A DNA stretch of 64,000 nucleotides. Origin: Vibrio tapetis subsp. tapetis. GTDB taxonomy: Bacteria > Pseudomonadota > Gammaproteobacteria > Enterobacterales > Vibrionaceae. Position numbers and translations under genes: made by a program. The notes beneath the pieces were generated by a model. The model had not been told where the DNA came from, ran no database searches, and worked only from the letters and a program-made list of their open reading frames with translations. The first letter of the stretch is position 1. Every line of letters starts with the position of its first letter. The stretch is from assembly GCF_900233005.1 (NCBI RefSeq), contig NZ_LT960611.1, positions 62,001-126,000 of the forward strand, read 5' to 3'. Below are positions 36,239 through 48,746 of the stretch, piece by piece.

Positions 36239-36643
36239 ATGGCTTGGACTTTATCAGAACTCACTTCAATTCTTGGCAAACATGAAGGTTGGAGTGTCGA
36301 TTCATCTACGTGTGAAGAATCACTGGTGTTAAAAAATGAAGACGGTATTGACGCTTATGTCGCCGTAGCTGGGGAGCAAATTATTGCCGAGGTAATTCTA
36401 TTTCCTACGTTATCAGTATCTGATGTGCATGCATTGAATAATGTAATTTTGAGAACGCATAAGATGTTCCCACTCTCGACCATTGGTATTAATACCATTG
36501 CGGGCGAGGACTACTACGTTGCATTCGGTTCATTGTCTTCTCAATCAAAAGAAGAAAGTGTGGTTATTGAAGTCGCTACTTTGTATCGCAATGTGGAAGC
36601 ATTTATCGATTTGTATGATGAATATTTAGGAGTGTCAGCATGA
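36239..36643 (+). CDS. DUF2170 family protein (YjfI-like)
   Basis: A 134-residue acidic soluble protein that I recognise as the DUF2170/YjfI family by its opening W-T-L-S-E-L, the N-E-D-G-I-D-A-Y-V-A-V segment and position directly before a PspA-type gene. The molecular function of the family is not established to my knowledge. No signal peptide or membrane segment is visible. Its stop overlaps the next start by four bases, so it is translationally coupled. In E. coli yjfI is likewise followed by yjfJ. Confidence 0.8.
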   Translation: MAWTLSELTSILGKHEGWSVDSSTCEESLVLKNEDGIDAYVAVAGEQIIAEVILFPTLSVSDVHALNNVILRTHKMFPLSTIGINTIAGEDYYVAFGSLSSQSKEESVVIEVATLYRNVEAFIDLYDEYLGVSA

Positions 36644-37326
36644 GTGTTTGGAAAAAACTATTTACCGCGATTAAAGGTGGCGTAAATGAAGCCGCTGAAG
36701 GTGCTGCCGATAATCAAGCGTTACGAATTCTGGATCAAGAGATCAGAGAAGCTAAAGAAGAATTAAGAAAGTCAGATCAAGCTCTTGTGTCTATTGTGGC
36801 CAAAAGAAAATTAGCTGAAAACAAAGCGTCAGGGTTTTCTGCCAGTATTTCAGAATACGAAGCGCATGCTCGCTCTGCAATGGAGAAAGGAGAGCAGGCG
36901 TTGGCATTGGAGTGTGCAGGTAAGGTTGCTGAATTTACTAGCCAACAAAGTGTTGAGCAAAAGTATGCAGAACAATTTGGCGTGTCAGAGCAAAAATTGA
37001 AAGAAAATATTGCTCAGGCGAAAGATAAGTTACGTCAACTTGAACAACAAGTAGACGTAGTGAAAGCCAACGAAGCGGTTCAAAAAGCCCAAACAGCAGT
37101 CTCGTCAACCAATGTTGGTGCGAATAGTAAAATGACAACCGCTGTCGAATCGCTAGAGCGAATTAAAAATCGCCAAGCAGAGAAACAAGCGCAATTAGAA
37201 GCCGCGGAAGAAATGCATCAAGAACAAACTGGTAGCAGCCTAGATAAAAAATTAGCGCAGGCGGGCATTACTTCTGGTGGACAATCTTCTGCAGAAGATG
37301 AGCTTGCACGAATTCTAGGGAAATAA
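36640..37326 (+). CDS. PspA/IM30 family protein (YjfJ-like)
   Basis: A 228-residue protein almost wholly alpha-helical and charged, with long coiled-coil stretches rich in E, K, Q and A (about residues 25-190), typical of PspA/IM30/ESCRT-III-like proteins. The family forms oligomeric rods or scaffolds on stressed inner membranes. It is more similar in context to YjfJ than to the PspA of the pspABC operon; no pspF, pspB or pspC is nearby. It lies second in the operon, 15 bases before an ion-channel gene, suggesting membrane-integrity or ion-leak function. Confidence 0.85.
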   Translation: MSVWKKLFTAIKGGVNEAAEGAADNQALRILDQEIREAKEELRKSDQALVSIVAKRKLAENKASGFSASISEYEAHARSAMEKGEQALALECAGKVAEFTSQQSVEQKYAEQFGVSEQKLKENIAQAKDKLRQLEQQVDVVKANEAVQKAQTAVSSTNVGANSKMTTAVESLERIKNRQAEKQAQLEAAEEMHQEQTGSSLDKKLAQAGITSGGQSSAEDELARILGK

Positions 37327-37341
37327 GACAGAGAATTTAGC

Positions 37342-38364
37342 ATGCCAATCTGGATGATTGTGAAAAGGTGGGCTTATACCCACCTTAGTGATCTAAGTAG
37401 TCGAAATTTGCTGGTCATATTTGCCGCTTACGTTGTTATATCGTGGCTATTATTAACCGGAGTGGGTGAAAGCGCCCTGACGGCGAATTTTACCGATTTC
37501 ATTTACTACTTAATAGTAACGTCGTCTACCGTTGGCTATGGCGACATGTCGCCAACAACTGTGATGGGCAAATGGATTGTGGGCCTGTTTGTTATTCCTG
37601 GTGGTCTGGGATTATTTGCGGTTTCATTGAGCCGTATTGCAACCGTGTTAATCAGTTCGTGGCGAGCAGGCTTACAAGGAAAACGGAGAGTAAAAGTGGA
37701 GAATCATATTCTTTTGTTGGGTTGGAACGAGCAAAGGACGCTTCATTTAGTTCGAATGCTTCAACATGAGGAGTCAGGGCGCAGACCTATTGTACTGTGC
37801 GCTCGGGCAGAGATAGAAAATCCAATGCCCTCTGAAATTGAATTTGTTCATGTTGGCAGTTTTACCGACAGCATGAGCATGAACAAAACCAATATAGAGC
37901 AAGCCAGCTGTATTATTGTCGACAACCCTGAAGACGATGTGACGTTATCTGCCGCATTGTATTGCGCTAATTTAAACCCTTCAGCCCATATTCTTGCGTA
38001 TTTTAAAGATGAAGCGTTGAGTCATCTGCTTAAAACTCATTGCCCAAATGTGGAATGTATCCCTTCGGTTGCTATTGAGCTATTAGCAAAAGCGGCCGTC
38101 GATCCTGGCTCCAGTGCTTTGCATCAAGAATTATTGAGTTCAACTCAGGGCATGACTCAGTATTCAGTTATTTACTCCGGGCAAGCAACCACAGTGTCGG
38201 TGTTATTTGAACAATTTAAAAAGCAATATCATGCGACGCTCATTGGCTTAGATAATGGTGATGGCATTAAGCTAAACCCTGAGTTAGACGTTAACGTCCT
38301 CCCTGATACCAAACTATTTTATATTGCAGACGAACGTGTCGAGCATTTTGATTGGAACGAGTAA
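37342..38364 (+). CDS. Two-helix potassium channel with RCK/TrkA-N-like domain
   Basis: A 340-residue membrane protein. Helix 1 (about residues 22-40), a pore loop with the K+ filter T-V-G-Y-G-D (63-68) and helix 2 (about 76-98) are followed by a cytoplasmic Rossmann-like domain starting N-H-I-L-L-L-G-W-N and a second C-terminal lobe. This is the MthK/Kch-like layout. The usual GxGxxG nucleotide loop is altered to L-L-G-W-N, so ligand binding is uncertain. From memory E. coli yjfIJKLMC has no channel at this point. Its stop overlaps the next start by one base (TAATG), so it belongs to the operon. Confidence 0.9.
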   Translation: MPIWMIVKRWAYTHLSDLSSRNLLVIFAAYVVISWLLLTGVGESALTANFTDFIYYLIVTSSTVGYGDMSPTTVMGKWIVGLFVIPGGLGLFAVSLSRIATVLISSWRAGLQGKRRVKVENHILLLGWNEQRTLHLVRMLQHEESGRRPIVLCARAEIENPMPSEIEFVHVGSFTDSMSMNKTNIEQASCIIVDNPEDDVTLSAALYCANLNPSAHILAYFKDEALSHLLKTHCPNVECIPSVAIELLAKAAVDPGSSALHQELLSSTQGMTQYSVIYSGQATTVSVLFEQFKKQYHATLIGLDNGDGIKLNPELDVNVLPDTKLFYIADERVEHFDWNE

Positions 38365-39005
38365 TGTTCAATTGGTTAAAGAAAAAAGCAAGTAAGCCCG
38401 AAGAAGTGCAACCTCAAGCACCTGAAGTTTTAGGATTAAGGCTAGGGGGGGCATTTGAACTAGACGATTTGAAGTTTAGAATGCTTGAGCCGGATCTGGT
38501 TATTGAGGGCGCCTCACGCACTCAGATTATTCAAGCCGTCGGTGAAGTAATACTCGATGATAATACGCGTTTGCTGCGCTTCTATACGGATGATGATGGC
38601 TATTTACAAGTATTGCAGCACGGCTTAGATGATAGCGGCGTGGCGGAAGTTAAGCTGTTTTATTTTTACGATACTAAACCCATTGATGTGCAGTCTGTAT
38701 GGGATTCATGGCTTGATACTGACTTGGTTAAGCCTAGTGTCTCTCTCGAAGAAAAAACGTTTTACAAAGTATGGGAAAACGGTCGTCCTATCGCAATGAC
38801 AGAAAAGACGTTTGATCGGGAAGGTCGGATCACTGAAACTGATCAATTTGTCATGCTCTACGAGCGTGAAGTCAATGAACACTATGCCGAATCACTGCTC
38901 ATCGCGTGTGAAGAGACGGCTAAAACACCTCATCAACTGGAGCGTTGTGTTACCTACATTACAGGTATTAATGTTTCAGCAACAGATTTTACTGTTATCG
39001 GATAA
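38364..39005 (+). CDS. DUF2491 family protein (YjfK-like)
   Basis: A 213-residue soluble acidic protein from the ATG at 38364, which overlaps the channel stop; an upstream GTG-type start at 38352 lies inside the channel gene. The family is recognised from the opening F-N-W-L-K-K-K, the A-F-E-L-D-D-L-K-F-R segment, Y-T-D-D-D-G-Y-L-Q and its place in a yjf-type operon. Function is unknown. No transmembrane helix or signal is present. Neighbours suggest a membrane-associated complex with the PspA-like protein. Confidence 0.78.
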   Translation: MFNWLKKKASKPEEVQPQAPEVLGLRLGGAFELDDLKFRMLEPDLVIEGASRTQIIQAVGEVILDDNTRLLRFYTDDDGYLQVLQHGLDDSGVAEVKLFYFYDTKPIDVQSVWDSWLDTDLVKPSVSLEEKTFYKVWENGRPIAMTEKTFDREGRITETDQFVMLYEREVNEHYAESLLIACEETAKTPHQLERCVTYITGINVSATDFTVIG

Positions 39006-39020
39006 CTACAGGATTTCAAT

Positions 39021-39434
39021 ATGGATTTTATTACACAGTCGCTTGGTGGGCTTGCTGATTTTGCCATTTATTTTGCTACATCGATTGGCTTTTTATTGTT
39101 GTTTAAGTTTATTTACACCCGTTTCACTCCGTACGATGAATGGAGCCTAGTTAAAGAAAATAACATGGCCGCTGCGGTTGCATTATCCGGGTCTTTTGTT
39201 GGATATAGCATCTCTATTTCTGGTGCGGCCGCGAACTCCGTTAATATTATCGATTTTGTGCTTTGGGGTCTTATCGCATTTATTGCTCAACTGATCGCCT
39301 TTGCTTTGGTTCGGTTTCTATTCTTACCAAAGATTGTACAACGAATTGAAAACAACGAAGTGTCTGCTGGTATCGTATTAGCGTCTGTATCGGTTTCGGT
39401 CGGTATGTTGAATGCTGCGTGTATGACCTATTAA
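39021..39434 (+). CDS. DUF350 family membrane protein (YjfL-like)
   Basis: A 137-residue integral membrane protein with four predicted helices (about residues 12-33, 48-68, 74-98 and 115-134) separated by short loops, matching DUF350/YjfL. Conserved small-residue stretches such as A-A-A-V-A-L-S-G-S-F-V-G-Y are visible. Function is unknown; the family is repeatedly found beside ATP-grasp ligase and PspA-type genes. It is 15 bases after the DUF2491 gene and 13 before the DUF1190 gene. Confidence 0.82.
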   Translation: MDFITQSLGGLADFAIYFATSIGFLLLFKFIYTRFTPYDEWSLVKENNMAAAVALSGSFVGYSISISGAAANSVNIIDFVLWGLIAFIAQLIAFALVRFLFLPKIVQRIENNEVSAGIVLASVSVSVGMLNAACMTY

Positions 39435-39447
39435 AAGGGGCTCAATG

Positions 39448-40059
39448 ATGAAACGAAGTCAACGAGTCATACTGCCGTCTATGCGTAAAGATTGGAGTAA
39501 AATTAACATTACTCCTTTTGCTGTAGCGGTGAGTGCTGTTGTAATTGCGGGTTGTTCAGACTCCGATCCCGACAATGATGCTCGGATTTATGCCGATGTC
39601 GAAGATTGCTCTCTTGATAATCCTGGCTATACCGAACAGTGCCAAGCAGCCTATGAAAATGCAGTGAACGAAGCGATGCGTACAGCGCCACGCTATGCGT
39701 CAGAAAATGATTGTAGGGTGGAGTTTCCTGGGGAAGAGTGCTTTCAGCCAAGAAATTCGTCTTGGTTTATCCCTGCGATGGGGGGCTATCTCTTTAGTAA
39801 AATGATCAATAATTCTCGTGGTTATTATAGTGAGCCTGTCTATCGTTATGGTGGTTCTTGGTATTCGACGAATGGTCGTTCGTATGGCTCTTATAATAGT
39901 GGCTACAATAAAGTCAAGATTAAGACCTCTGAGATGAAAAAAAAGCCAGCCGCAACACGAACCATGTCTCGCGGTGGTTTTGGTTCAACCGTTTCTGCGA
40001 AATCCAGTTGGAGTAAAAGTAGCTCGAGTAAGTCCAGTAAATCAAGCTGGGGTGGGTAA
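39448..40059 (+). CDS. DUF1190 lipoprotein (YjfM/YgiB-like) with Gly-Gly tail
   Basis: About 203 residues. A tat-like or long basic N-end precedes a hydrophobic stretch ending in V-I-A-G-C, a lipobox with the cysteine near residue 36. The D-C, C-x-A-A-Y and T-A-P-R-Y pattern identifies DUF1190. The tail has T-M-S-R-G-G-F-G-S, a Ser/Lys-rich low-complexity part, and ends in S-S-W-G-G. E. coli YgiB, as I recall, also ends in Gly-Gly. ATG 39448 suits the AAGGGG better than 39445. The next gene encodes an ATP-grasp ligase, as ygiC follows ygiB. Confidence 0.82.
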   Translation: MKRSQRVILPSMRKDWSKINITPFAVAVSAVVIAGCSDSDPDNDARIYADVEDCSLDNPGYTEQCQAAYENAVNEAMRTAPRYASENDCRVEFPGEECFQPRNSSWFIPAMGGYLFSKMINNSRGYYSEPVYRYGGSWYSTNGRSYGSYNSGYNKVKIKTSEMKKKPAATRTMSRGGFGSTVSAKSSWSKSSSSKSSKSSWGG

Positions 40060-40065
40060 AGCCTC

Positions 40066-41229
40066 ATGCTTCGTTTAGACACGAAAGAGCGGCCAAATTG
40101 GCGTGACTTGGCTAAGAAGTTTGGTTTTGGCTACCACAGCATGTACGACGAACCTTATTGGGATGAGCGAGCTTATTATCAATTTAGCTTAGAGCAAGTT
40201 GAAAGAGATATTGAAGCTCCGACCGAAGAAATCCATCAAATGTGTTTGCAAGTGGTGGACAAGGTCGTCGCTGATGAGAATTTGCTGCGTCGCTTTCAAA
40301 TACCCCAATCAATGTGGGATAGCGTTGCTGCGTCTTGGAAGCGCAATGAGCCGTCGCTTTATTCACGAGTGGATTTTGCATATTCAGGAAAAGGAGATGC
40401 AAAACTTCTGGAAAATAACGCAGATACTCCAACAAGTTTATACGAAACGGGTTTTTGGCAGTGGGTTTGGTTGGAAGATAAGGTTAATGCGGGCCAGTTA
40501 AGTCGTAATGCAGACCAATTTAATATTCTGCAGGACTACTTAATTGAGCGGTTTCATCAGTTATCTAAGCAACAACCTGGGCAAACTTTGCATTTCTCTT
40601 GCTGTAAAGAGACGGAAGAAGACCGAGGAACGGTGCAATATTTAGAAGATTGCGCAAAAGAGGCCGGTTTAGAAACGGCCTTCGTACACATCGAGGATAT
40701 TGGCATCAATTGCCTTGATGAATTTGTCGATATGAAATCAAAGCCCATTCGGTGGATGTTTAAATTGTATCCATGGGAGTTTATGTTCGACGAAGAATAT
40801 AGTCGACACCTACCGACCAGTAATATCAATTGGCTCGAGCCGATGTGGAAGTCAATTTTATCCAATAAAGCTTTGCTGCCTCTTCTGTGGCAAATGTTTC
40901 CTAACCATCCCAACCTGTTACCTGCTTACTTTATGGATGATGCTAAAGCCTCACAGTTAAAAGACTACGTCGTGAAACCGATTTTTTCACGTGAAGGCGC
41001 CAATATCTCTATTTTTAAAGGAGGGAAGCAGATTGCAAAAGCGGATGGGCCGTATGGTCAAGAAGGGATGATAGTACAGGCTTATCATCCGCTACCTGTC
41101 TTTAATGGAAGTAATACATTGATTGGTAGTTGGTTAGTCAACGACCGAGCGGCAGGTATGTCGATCCGTGAAGATGACAGCTTAATTACCCAAGATTACG
41201 CACGTTACATGCCTCATATTATTTTATAA
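40066..41229 (+). CDS. Glutathionylspermidine-synthase-type ATP-grasp ligase (YjfC/YgiC-like)
   Basis: A 387-residue protein of the GSP_synth family. It begins R-P-N-W-R-D-L-A-K-K-F-G-F and has N-N-A-D-T-P-T-S-L, W-L-E-P-M-W-K, and the ATP-grasp segment K-P-I-F-S-R-E-G-A-N-I. The amidase domain of E. coli Gsp is absent, so this is a synthetase-only form like YjfC and YgiC. Such enzymes form an amide bond at the expense of ATP; the substrate here is unknown and need not be glutathione or spermidine. It is the last gene of the operon, six bases after the Gly-Gly-ending lipoprotein. Confidence 0.85.
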   Translation: MLRLDTKERPNWRDLAKKFGFGYHSMYDEPYWDERAYYQFSLEQVERDIEAPTEEIHQMCLQVVDKVVADENLLRRFQIPQSMWDSVAASWKRNEPSLYSRVDFAYSGKGDAKLLENNADTPTSLYETGFWQWVWLEDKVNAGQLSRNADQFNILQDYLIERFHQLSKQQPGQTLHFSCCKETEEDRGTVQYLEDCAKEAGLETAFVHIEDIGINCLDEFVDMKSKPIRWMFKLYPWEFMFDEEYSRHLPTSNINWLEPMWKSILSNKALLPLLWQMFPNHPNLLPAYFMDDAKASQLKDYVVKPIFSREGANISIFKGGKQIAKADGPYGQEGMIVQAYHPLPVFNGSNTLIGSWLVNDRAAGMSIREDDSLITQDYARYMPHIIL

Positions 41230-45707: not shown

Positions 45708-45800
45708 GGTGAGGTGGCCGAGAGGCTGAAGGCGCTCCCCTGCTAAGGGAGTATGTGGTTTATAGCCGCATCGAGGGTTCGAATCCCTCCCTCACCGCCA
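45708..45800 (+). tRNA. tRNA-Ser(GCU), copy 1
   Basis: A 93-base class II tRNA with a long variable arm. Acceptor GGTGAGG pairs with CCTCACC, the anticodon loop is CTGCTAA (GCT), the T loop is GTTCGAATC, and CCA is encoded. It reads AGC and AGU codons. Identical to copy 2 at 45965. Confidence 0.97.
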
Positions 45801-45852
45801 TTCTTGCACTGCTTATTTTGAGTGAAGCAGCTCAAGTGTTTAAGCAAATGTT

Positions 45853-45929
45853 GCGCCCTTAGCTCAGCTGGATAGAGTACCTGGCTACGAACCAGGCGGT
45901 CGGAGGTTCGAATCCTCCAGGGCGCACCA
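45853..45929 (+). tRNA. tRNA-Arg(ACG), copy 1
   Basis: A 77-base tRNA. Acceptor GCGCCCT pairs with AGGGCGC, the anticodon loop is CTACGAA (ACG, read as ICG after deamination), and CCA is encoded. It reads CGU, CGC and CGA. Identical to the four copies downstream. Confidence 0.97.
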
Positions 45930-45964
45930 CTTCCTTTTGCAACGGAAGATTAGCAATACAAGAC

Positions 45965-46057
45965 GGTGAGGTGGCCGAGAGGCTGAAGGCGCTCCCCTGC
46001 TAAGGGAGTATGTGGTTTATAGCCGCATCGAGGGTTCGAATCCCTCCCTCACCGCCA
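45965..46057 (+). tRNA. tRNA-Ser(GCU), copy 2
   Basis: Identical over all 93 bases to copy 1. The few bases upstream (CAAGAC) are also shared, pointing to duplication of the Ser-Arg pair. Confidence 0.97.
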
Positions 46058-46100
46058 TTATTGACCTTAGGTCAATTTTTTTGTTCCCAAGGAATGAAAG

Positions 46101-46116
46101 TGTGATATAGTTCACG
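46101..46116 (+). promoter_or_regulatory. CRP-like or promoter element before tRNA-Arg copy 2
   Basis: TGTGA-N6-TCACG resembles a CRP site, but the same bases contain GATATA, which with TTGTTC (46081-46086) at 17 bases spacing and the GC-rich CACGTCCCG after it could be an internal sigma-70 promoter. Either reading is tentative. Confidence 0.3.
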
Positions 46117-46122
46117 TCCCGT

Positions 46123-46199
46123 GCGCCCTTAGCTCAGCTGGATAGAGTACCTGGCTACGAACCAGGCGGTCGGAGGTTCGAATCCTCCAGGGCGCACCA
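46123..46199 (+). tRNA. tRNA-Arg(ACG), copy 2
   Basis: Identical to copy 1; first member of a set of four spaced exactly 140 bases apart. CCA is encoded and the anticodon loop is CTACGAA. Confidence 0.97.
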
Positions 46200-46262
46200 C
46201 TATTTAAGGTCATTGACCTTGATATGGTTTTCTTTAATTAGAATATCAATATCTAAACCTGT

Positions 46263-46339
46263 GCGCCCTTAGCTCAGCTGGATAGAGTACCTGGCTACGA
46301 ACCAGGCGGTCGGAGGTTCGAATCCTCCAGGGCGCACCA
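46263..46339 (+). tRNA. tRNA-Arg(ACG), copy 3
   Basis: Identical to copies 1 and 2, in the second 140-base unit; encoded CCA, anticodon ACG. Confidence 0.97.
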
Positions 46340-46402
46340 CAATTTAAGGTCATTGACCTTGATATGGTTTTTTTTAATTAGAATATCAATATCTAAACCT
46401 GT

Positions 46403-46479
46403 GCGCCCTTAGCTCAGCTGGATAGAGTACCTGGCTACGAACCAGGCGGTCGGAGGTTCGAATCCTCCAGGGCGCACCA
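46403..46479 (+). tRNA. tRNA-Arg(ACG), copy 4
   Basis: Identical to the other copies, in the third 140-base unit; encoded CCA, anticodon ACG. Confidence 0.97.
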
Positions 46480-46542
46480 CAATTTAAGGTCATTGACCTT
46501 GATATTGTCTTCTTTAATTAGAGTATCAATATCTAAACCTGT

Positions 46543-46619
46543 GCGCCCTTAGCTCAGCTGGATAGAGTACCTGGCTACGAACCAGGCGGTCGGAGGTTCG
46601 AATCCTCCAGGGCGCACCA
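46543..46619 (+). tRNA. tRNA-Arg(ACG), copy 5
   Basis: Identical to the other copies and the last of the array; the operon terminator begins seven bases after it. Confidence 0.97.
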
Positions 46620-46656: not shown

Positions 46657-48746
46657 GTTTGCCCAGCGAAGCTGGCAAACCCATTAGGCTGAAAGAAGCC
46701 TAAATCACCCTGATTGAGGGGAAGATAATCCGAATCGCAAGGGCGTTGCTGGCCAACGGCAGGGTTTGAAGGAAGCGATAGGAAGTTAACAGTACACAAC
46801 GAAAGTGAACCTGATTCGGCAATTTAGGTGGGTAAGCGTGCAAAATAGCGTGAAGCCCGATACTCAATCAGACCTAGATTGTGCTTGAGGGTGGCATTGT
46901 TAACAGGGAGCCAGTGCAGTAACTGGGGAAGCCTGACATCACATCCGAGCAAACGTCGGAAGCATAAACTCAAGGCGAGAGCCAAGATCTATGTTGGTGC
47001 GAGGTGGCAGATGAATCCGTAGTAGTGAGTAAAGCTCGGCCGGTGAAGCCCAGTAATGGTGTGGAGGATAAAACTGAGCTGACCATCAGTAACACGTCTG
47101 ATGGGACAACATTTTGCCAAAAGCAATCTGGTGTTGCGAAGGGATGAAGTACATTTTAAGTCTGTGATGAGCAGATGTTTTTTTTCAGTGGTATACAAGT
47201 TGATTAGCTATCGAGGTCCTCTGTCGCGGTCTTTGTGAAAGCAAAGCACTGAAGCGAGAAACCGTACAAGGGAGTAACTCTGACTCACTCTAGTAAATTG
47301 CCATTGAGCTAGAAGGCTAGAGAGTGGAGTGAAATACACCAACACTGTGAGAGAGCATTTGTCCCCACACGGCACACAATCTAAAGGAAAAAGTTGAGAG
47401 TTTACTACAGTTTATATGGTCACTTGCTCCACAAAGAGCGACTCTATAAAGGATTTAAAAAAGTGTGGAAAGCGAAAGGCGCGGCCGGAATAGATAGGCA
47501 GAGCCTAAGCGACTACGCCCAAAATCTGAGTGATAACCTAGATCAACTTCTTCTGGAACTCAAAACCAAGCGATACACCCCTCAACCCGTCAGACGGGTA
47601 GAAATACCGAAAGATGATGGTGGGGTGCGATTACTTGGGATCCCAACAGTACGGGATAGAGTTGTCCAACAAGCTCTAAATGATCTATTAACCCCAATCT
47701 TCGAAGAGCAGTTTCACCCATCCAGCTTTGGGTATAGACCGAATCGAAGTTGTCACGATGCTATAAACAAAGCGACGATGTTCATCCGTCGATACGGAAT
47801 GCAACACGTCGTAGATATGGACTTATCGAAGTGCTTCGATAAGCTCGATCATGAGCTTATTCTAAAAAGCATTAAGAAACGAGTCACAGACAGTAGCGTA
47901 CTGGAGCTCATCAAACAGTTCCTGAAAAGTGGCGTAATGGTTGATGGAGAGTGGCAGCATACCGAGATAGGTAGTCCGCAAGGTGGAGTAATAAGCCCAC
48001 TGATAGCGAACATCTATCTGGATGCGTTTGATCAAGAGATGCGAAAGCGAGGACATCGAATAGTCCGTTATGCCGACGACATACTGATCTTCTGTCGCAG
48101 CCGTAAAGGTGCAGAAAATGCGCAAGTACAGGCAACGAAGGTCCTGGAAAAACAGCTCAAGTTAACGGTGAACGAAACCAAATCACACATAGCGCACAGC
48201 GGCGAAGGTGTGAAATTCCTTGGAATAGAAATCGGTAGCCATTATAGCCGTATTCAGCCAAAGAAAATGTCGACGTTCAAAGGAAAGTTGAAGCGAGTGA
48301 CAAGACGCAATGGCGGTAAGCCATTGTTAGAAGTCATTAAACAACTGAATCCACTTCTGAGAGGGTTCAGCCAGTACTTTCGAATAGCGAATGCCAACAG
48401 GGAGTTTAAGAAACTGGCCGCGTGGTTAAGGCGAAGACTTCGCAGCGTCCAATTACGATTATGGAAAAAACCGACCCGACTCCACCGCAGGCTAAGACAG
48501 CTAGGTTACGAAGGGTCATTCAGGTATATCTGTATGGATAGTTGGAGAAATGCTGCGAGTCCATTAGCCAGTTACTCGATGCCAAATCAATGGTTTAACG
48601 ACCTTGGATTAGTGAATCTTGAACACGTTAGGACAGGATATGTGTTCAGCCATTATGCTGAATGGAAATGTGCATGAGCCGTATACGAGGTCCGTACGTA
48701 CGGTTCTGTGAGAGGGATGAGGCGGAGACGCCTCACCCTACTCGAT
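46657..48746 (+). mobile_element. Group II intron with reverse transcriptase
   Basis: About 2.1 kb. A structured non-coding 5' part (46657-47393) precedes the reverse-transcriptase gene. Domain V is readable at 48676-48706: GAGCCGTA pairs with TACGGTTC, with the AGC triad and a two-base CG bulge. Domain VI is a GAGGCG-GAGA-CGCCTC stem near 48718-48734, and the element ends near CTCGAT (48746). The 5' end is inferred at 46657, where GTTTG departs from the usual GTGYG, so that boundary is uncertain. Insertion right after an intrinsic terminator is the habit of group IIC introns, but the AGC triad is less typical of that class. Confidence 0.85.
47394..48677 (+). CDS. Group II intron reverse transcriptase/maturase
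   Basis: A 427-residue intron-encoded protein. It contains reverse-transcriptase blocks with R-L-L-G-I-P-T-V-R-D-R, F-G-Y-R-P-N-R-S, S-P-Q-G-G-V-I-S-P and the catalytic Y-A-D-D near residue 225, then a thumb and maturase X domain. There is no HNH endonuclease domain at the C-terminus, so mobility would rely on single-stranded or stem-loop targets. The frame starts at TTG 47394 with AAAGGA five bases upstream. The gene is intact. It supports splicing and retrohoming of the surrounding intron. Confidence 0.93.
   Translation: MRVYYSLYGHLLHKERLYKGFKKVWKAKGAAGIDRQSLSDYAQNLSDNLDQLLLELKTKRYTPQPVRRVEIPKDDGGVRLLGIPTVRDRVVQQALNDLLTPIFEEQFHPSSFGYRPNRSCHDAINKATMFIRRYGMQHVVDMDLSKCFDKLDHELILKSIKKRVTDSSVLELIKQFLKSGVMVDGEWQHTEIGSPQGGVISPLIANIYLDAFDQEMRKRGHRIVRYADDILIFCRSRKGAENAQVQATKVLEKQLKLTVNETKSHIAHSGEGVKFLGIEIGSHYSRIQPKKMSTFKGKLKRVTRRNGGKPLLEVIKQLNPLLRGFSQYFRIANANREFKKLAAWLRRRLRSVQLRLWKKPTRLHRRLRQLGYEGSFRYICMDSWRNAASPLASYSMPNQWFNDLGLVNLEHVRTGYVFSHYAEWKCA

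Follow-up and report, generated by a model that had tools for sequence, protein, structure and literature searches.

What does the ATP-grasp ligase encoded at the end of a seven-gene operon of Vibrio tapetis subsp. tapetis act upon, and how much of this operon was already known? The operon lies in a stretch of 64,000 nucleotides (assembly GCF_900233005.1, contig NZ_LT960611.1, positions 62,001 to 126,000), referred to below as the window, where seven consecutive plus-strand genes at 36239-41229 specify a DUF2170 protein, a PspA/IM30 protein, a K+ channel, a DUF2491 protein, a DUF350 protein, a predicted DUF1190 lipoprotein and the ligase (Table 1). Successive genes are spaced by -4, +15, -1, +15, +10 and +6 bases, every gap thus being of 15 bases or less. 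The open reading frames (ORFs) and Pfam matches confirmed the genes, their order, strand, spacing and families as given in a first-pass annotation, which had also put the system forward as a candidate for an undescribed one. This second view cannot be upheld, because the same gene set, channel included, is found in the third group of CesT/Tir-PspA operons of Ravi et al. 2024 (PMC11237479; AMJ95269.1 to AMJ95273.1). As in that group, the window combines a DUF2170-PspA dyad with a GSP-synthetase-like ATP-grasp protein, a K+ channel, DUF350, DUF1190 and DUF2491. The seven genes are a widely conserved bacterial membrane-stress operon that is already in print together with its channel. Since the operon is of a known type, its presence in V. 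tapetis is ordinary, and the part worth testing is the pairing of the ligase with the tail of the adjacent lipoprotein. In PMC11237479 the monitoring of polyamine or aminopropylation is proposed as a task of PspA systems, and the available portions mention neither the lipoprotein tail nor the lipoprotein as a ligase substrate. Our literature search turned up no functional work on the operon with all seven genes.

The ligase is a single-domain GSP_synth protein (531 bits over residues 12-386) in which no other Pfam domain, and no amidase domain, was found. It matches the structures of E. coli YgiC (PDB 7uk8, E 1.4e-159, over residues 3-386) and YjfC (7uk6, E 1.8e-126) and, with 58% identity to the former and 49% to the latter, is nearer to YgiC. 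As a full-length GSP_synth protein without an amidase and with GspSA-type residues, the window ligase fits the class of YgiC/YjfC peptide-polyamine ligases. Both E. coli proteins have solved structures (7uk6-7uka) and carry the RefSeq product name peptide--spermidine ligase, which corrects the earlier statement that no gene function in this set is established. GspSA, a distant relative of the window ligase, joins spermidine to the C-terminal glycine of glutathione. Its residues R316, D318, E330, N332 and R598, which we take to be the ATP/Mg and substrate/carboxylate-activating ligands, align with R101, D103, E116, N118 and R368 of the window ligase, all of them invariant (59/59). Because GspSA acts on a terminal glycine and these five residues are invariant, the Gly-Gly end of the neighbouring protein is the obvious acceptor. 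The ligase has no signal sequence visible by eye and is taken to be cytosolic. A search of the window genome found no other GSP_synth or DUF1190 match beyond the operon.

The neighbouring DUF1190 protein matches NCBIfam PRK11653 below the cut-off of that model. We compared it with its counterparts in 60 named loci, a set that was collected with the window's own DUF2491 protein and therefore leans to relatives of the window. A lipobox-like pattern was matched in 58 of the 60 sequences. Besides the lipobox cysteine there are four further invariant cysteines, possibly forming two disulfides, which would fit a periplasmic domain. The signal peptide has a long conserved n-region, KRSxxINLxxMRK. The tail reads RGGFGSxxxAKSSW, followed by a linker of variable length and usually by W-GG or F-GG at the very end; L051, ending in WGS, is the lone exception to a GG end among the 60. 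The net charge over the last 40 residues is +5 to +10, and the tail is disordered in the structure model, with a predicted local distance difference test score (pLDDT) of <50 at residues 169-195. In E. coli, YjfM ends in HWGG and YgiB in SMGG.

We consider the chances about even that this is a yjf-type envelope-stress operon whose ligase puts a polyamine on the C-terminus of the DUF1190 lipoprotein. The polyamine that the cytosolic ligase would attach at the C-terminal glycine would be spermidine or, in vibrios, norspermidine, and the long conserved n-region of the signal peptide may hold the lipoprotein in the cytosol until it is modified. The lipoprotein would then be exported and lipidated, and its polycationic tail would clamp anionic lipid or lipopolysaccharide. 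PspA, together with its DUF2170 chaperone, would support the damaged inner membrane, while the RCK-gated channel would adjust either K+ or the membrane potential; as counter-ions, K+ and polyamines can replace each other. DUF350 and DUF2491 would assist. The likely envelope role that the first-pass annotation had assigned to the operon is judged right. Its suggestion of an envelope substrate for the ligase was guesswork, which the evidence now supports, with the adjacent DUF1190 protein as the candidate.

Does the tail track the ligase? In a class sample of 369 genomes, which was not selected by a window protein, the ligase family occurred in 22, and every one of the 12 genomes with DUF1190 was among them. 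We also surveyed 93 standalone ligases, drawn from both the class sample and a phylum sample, for an ORF of at least 80 aa ending within 150 bases upstream of the ligase (an overlap of up to 60 was allowed), with 519 other ORFs of at least 250 aa as controls in the same upstream test. The upstream ORF had a GG end for 59 of the 93 ligases, the motif for 67, both for 53, either for 73 and neither for 20, and among the 519 controls a GG end for 5, the motif for 6 and both for 2; genomes of the same genus or family are not independent, so that Fisher values for these counts overstate significance. The ligases of L121, L122 and L123 (38%, 27% and 30% identical) have an upstream lipobox protein that ends in GG and is not DUF1190 by Pfam. 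Where the ligase is unlinked (Photobacterium, L009, L011), it is still present in the genome and the DUF1190 tail keeps its WGG.

The 93 ligases do not include the window ligase, G071, G201, the weak fragments G010, G164, G586 and G463:C2, G288 (no BLAST hit), and phylum matches of less than 270 bits (G617:C1:271964, G719:C22:38998, G463:C1, G629:C1:766840, G517:C1:696022, G649:C1:3802886, G465); L120, which is cut by a contig end, was retained as a miss. Nine ligases were set apart, seven of them long and GspSA-like (L130, L131, L217-L221) and two shorter and low-scoring (L215, L216). Among these nine the upstream ORF had a GG end in 0/9 and the motif in 1/9, and the stretch of L216 contains a tail-like ORF at another position. 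Gly-rich tails of the RGGFG or RGGFT type are also borne by ORFs near, and not directly upstream of, the ligase in L194 (3402-4634), L196 (1660-2370) and L201 (1450-2172).

Besides the overstated Fisher values, several points weigh against the proposed modification of the tail. A cytosolic enzyme and an exported substrate leave the timing unexplained, and the 60 named loci, drawn with a window protein, are biased to its relatives. No GG-ending ORF lies just upstream of 34 of the 93 ligases, and 20 have neither sign there. Of these 20, L165, L172 and L179 have pspA, according to Pfam, as their upstream gene, and L178, L180 and L183 have a PspA match within the stretch; no motif-bearing ORF with a Gly-rich end was found in these six stretches of 6 kb. 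Furthermore, the motif-bearing partners end in Ser in 11 of 66 cases and in Ala, Thr and Glu in one case each, which indicates that the terminal Gly is not strictly kept.

Some of these data could also be accommodated if the tail were never modified and served to signal docking or assembly, either with DUF350 or with some partner in the outer membrane, or formed part of a metal-chelating lipoprotein, with the ligase acting on another peptide. The internal motif is indeed kept more widely than the terminal GG (67 vs 59 of 93), DUF350 is encoded in at least 54 of the 93 ligase stretches (as these are 3.9-14 kb long, such counts are lower bounds), and DUF1190 is labelled a metal-chelating lipoprotein in PMC11237479. 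However, the non-DUF1190 lipoproteins beside the divergent ligases of L121, L122 and L123 end in GG as well, and no DUF1190 gene in the class sample occurs without a ligase (12/12). We regard this reading as unlikely.

Polyamine addition to the tail may extend well beyond the window. Somewhat short of an even chance, in our estimate, is the combined proposal that dedicated ATP-grasp ligases add a polyamine to the C-terminal Gly of RGGFG...GG lipoproteins, whereby the envelope would gain a covalent polycation under stress; that the tail, rather than the DUF1190 domain, would define the substrates, among them E. coli YgiB, YjfM and non-DUF1190 lipoproteins across Pseudomonadota; and that in marine lineages the modification would be tied to the K+ channel. 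The core module seems to consist of DUF350, the tail protein and the ligase, to which PspA, DUF2170, DUF2491 and the channel would have been added in some lineages. The conserved glycine-glycine lipoprotein tail as a possible ligase target looks to be the new part of this system: we found nothing in the literature that ties the DUF1190/YgiB tail to the ligase, a claim of novelty limited to sources other than Pederick et al. 2023, which has peptide-spermidine ligase in its title, and the amidoligase survey of Iyer et al. 2009.

The arrangement of the seven genes cannot be explained by chance, since all seven are kept in the same order and on one strand in 47 of the 60 named loci. The other 13 comprise seven loci without a channel at the site, five with a displaced ligase, and L034, which is cut by a contig end. 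In L008 and L055 the displaced ligase immediately precedes the operon; in L009, L010 and L011 it is misplaced or unlinked. The tight packing seen in the window is not general: all gaps are of 15 bases or less in only 2 of the 47 loci, and of 150 bases or less in 36. E. coli K-12 yjfIJKLMC shares the other six genes, in unchanged order, and lacks the channel, just as the first-pass annotation had stated, and its proteins are of low identity to those of the window (27% for DUF2491, 49% for the ligase). A second E. coli locus, tolC-ygiB-ygiC, has the pair of tail lipoprotein and ligase as in the window; unlike in the window, no PspA, channel, DUF2491 or DUF350 is annotated adjoining ygiB-ygiC.

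The channel had been regarded as an addition to the yjf-type set, and its being rare and random beside these families would have spoken against the proposed system. It is neither. In 53 of the 60 named loci the channel gene immediately precedes the DUF2491 gene; pspA is on its other side in 52 of these 53, the contig ending there in L034. The seven loci without an adjacent channel belong to two Enterovibrio, four Oceanimonas and Glaciecola sp. XM2. When the whole genomes were searched, a channel of this subfamily turned up at another site in XM2 and in each Enterovibrio, with E about 1e-156 or better; none was found in the four Oceanimonas at an E cut-off of 1e-20. In the class sample, with a channel threshold of E 1e-30 or better, DUF2491 and the channel subfamily occur in 8 genomes each, and in 6 the two are present side by side. 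The channel-only genomes are G257, whose contig breaks off immediately behind the channel gene, and G060, where the context is different; DUF2491 has no channel beside it in G303 and G365. The channel tree and the core tree (PspA, DUF2491, DUF350) are correlated with r 0.96 (n=57; at most 0.39 in 999 permutations), which is what joint inheritance would produce.

A channel that was a mere passenger, without a functional tie to the other genes, would account for the DUF2491 operons of E. coli, G303 and G365 that have no adjacent channel and for the four Oceanimonas that have none at all. We consider this very unlikely in view of the adjacency in 53 of 60 loci, the three channels that were relocated and yet kept, and the congruent trees. 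Taken together, adjacency, retention elsewhere in 3 of the 7 exceptional loci and congruence show that the channel belongs to the system and that its presence in the operon is the usual state, which E. coli, Oceanimonas and a few others do not share. The distribution of the subfamily suggests that E. coli either lost the channel from its operon or never had it there. As a separate observation, the lone XM2 channel gene (L224, 5518-6570) adjoins queA-tgt-yajC-like genes, named from reading their proteins; this site carries the whole operon in G348, and the other six XM2 genes are at L048.

The pore and RCK domain of the channel match MthK over nearly its whole length (residues 6-335, E 1.1e-24 with profile A1). 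MthK binds Ca2+ through residues that we take to be D184, E210 and E212. At the aligned positions the window subfamily has D194 in 53/54 and Y220 in 52/54 channels, and Glu at 222 in 3/54, where N or K mostly stands. With two of the three ligands absent, the MthK Ca2+ site is not preserved and the channel is not called Ca2+-gated. In the cytosolic part, C153, H233 and C234 are invariant in 54/54 and C239 is kept in 53/54 (HCPNVEC), and this Cys/His set is possibly a redox or metal site. Glutathione adducts gate KefC, and the ligase might by analogy make a glutathionyl- or peptidyl-polyamine that binds the channel RCK domain and gates K+ efflux, the tail being conserved for some other reason. 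The RCK domain, the cysteines and histidine, which would suit a thiol or redox ligand, and the co-occurrence of ligase and channel are in keeping with this. Nevertheless, the channel was found in 12 of the 93 ligase stretches (again a lower bound), as opposed to a GG end or motif upstream in 73, and E. coli retains its ligases although neither of its operons has a channel. A small-molecule product of the ligase is in our judgement improbable.

In PMC11237479 and PMC10948618, DUF2170 is assigned a CesT/Tir chaperone-like fold, and the former describes DUF350 as a membrane protein. The first two genes correspond to those of the Pseudomonas aeruginosa bac operon, which encode DUF2170 (BacA, with a crystal structure) and PspA (BacB); according to that report, no protein in or around bac resembles a spermidine synthase (PMC10948618). 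Upregulation of yjfIJKL in heat-evolved E. coli strains is recorded in PMC12492005. The window genome has one other PspA family gene elsewhere (2 matches in the genome search). The AlphaFold2 model of DUF2491 (window 38364-39002; mean pLDDT 91.9) is beta-rich with many invariant acidic residues, and no clear fold match to it was found, the resemblance to triphosphate-tunnel and PR-10-like barrels being weak. The start of this gene was taken as ATG 38364, the mechanical ORF list having TTG at 38352.

Table 1. Genes of the operon and sequence features of their products, in window coordinates.
Feature	Position	Strand	Size and evidence
DUF2170 protein (YjfI/BacA type)	36239..36643	+	134 aa; Pfam PF09938 1.7e-36
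PspA/IM30 (YjfJ type)	36640..37326	+	228 aa; Pfam PF04012 (PspA_IM30) 3.9e-43
MthK-like K+ channel, pore and cytosolic RCK domain	37342..38364	+	340 aa; Ion_trans_2 3.5e-13, TrkA_N 4e-06
Selectivity filter TVGYGD, residues 63-68	37528..37545	+	invariant in 54/54 channels
DUF2491 (YjfK type), beta-rich	38364..39005	+	213 aa; Pfam PF10679 1.4e-68
DUF350 (YjfL type) membrane protein	39021..39434	+	137 aa; Pfam PF03994 6.8e-40
DUF1190 predicted lipoprotein (YjfM/YgiB type)	39445..40059	+	204 aa; Pfam PF06693 5.7e-43
Lipobox VIAGC ending at Cys37	39541..39555	+	C37 invariant in alignments A3, A5 (28/28 aligned)
RGGFGS tail motif, residues 176-181	39970..39987	+	RGG[FY]G in 60/60 named DUF1190 proteins
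C-terminal Gly-Gly, proposed polyamine attachment site	40051..40056	+	GG end in 59/60 named homologues
ATP-grasp ligase (GSP_synth, YgiC/YjfC type)	40066..41229	+	387 aa; Pfam PF03738 2.3e-159

The operon is flanked by recA and alaS, both named from reading their proteins. In tblastn searches with the flank proteins, the same flanks were found at L004 (Vibrio tapetis subsp. quintayensis), to whose operon proteins those of the window are 98-100% identical, and at L005 (Vibrio genomosp. F10), and, over the extent of the available stretches, at no further named locus. Since some defence settings feature channels and PspA-like proteins, the operon could be taken for an anti-phage defence system. 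To this we give hardly any credence: PADLOC returned no relevant match for the seven proteins, with one weak match of PspA to PbeC (E 0.0013), channel and core appear to have been inherited together, and the flanking genes are recA and alaS. Unlike the psp operon, which is controlled by PspF and sigma54, the window operon has no recognisable sigma54 promoter in the 400 bases upstream, where the best match has 6 mismatches out of 11. Among 60 upstream regions (the window and 59 named loci), 1 has a match with at most 2 mismatches, a frequency like that of shuffled sequences (16/1200). Further downstream, the window has an array of seven tRNA genes at 45708-46619, namely Ser(GCT) x2 and Arg(ACG) x5, the last four Arg copies being consecutive. 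Just downstream of this cluster is a group II intron at 46746-48746 (Rfam D1-D4 and Intron_gpII matches), which holds an ORF at 47394-48677 that appears reverse-transcriptase-like on reading the protein.

If the ligase does modify the lipoprotein tail, YgiC and YjfC, for which structures have been solved and in vitro activity has been reported, would gain a specific protein substrate; the literature that we found names no physiological substrate for either enzyme. Several DUF families would become one pathway that can be tested in E. coli K-12, and the recurrence of polyamine enzymes beside PspA would be explained.

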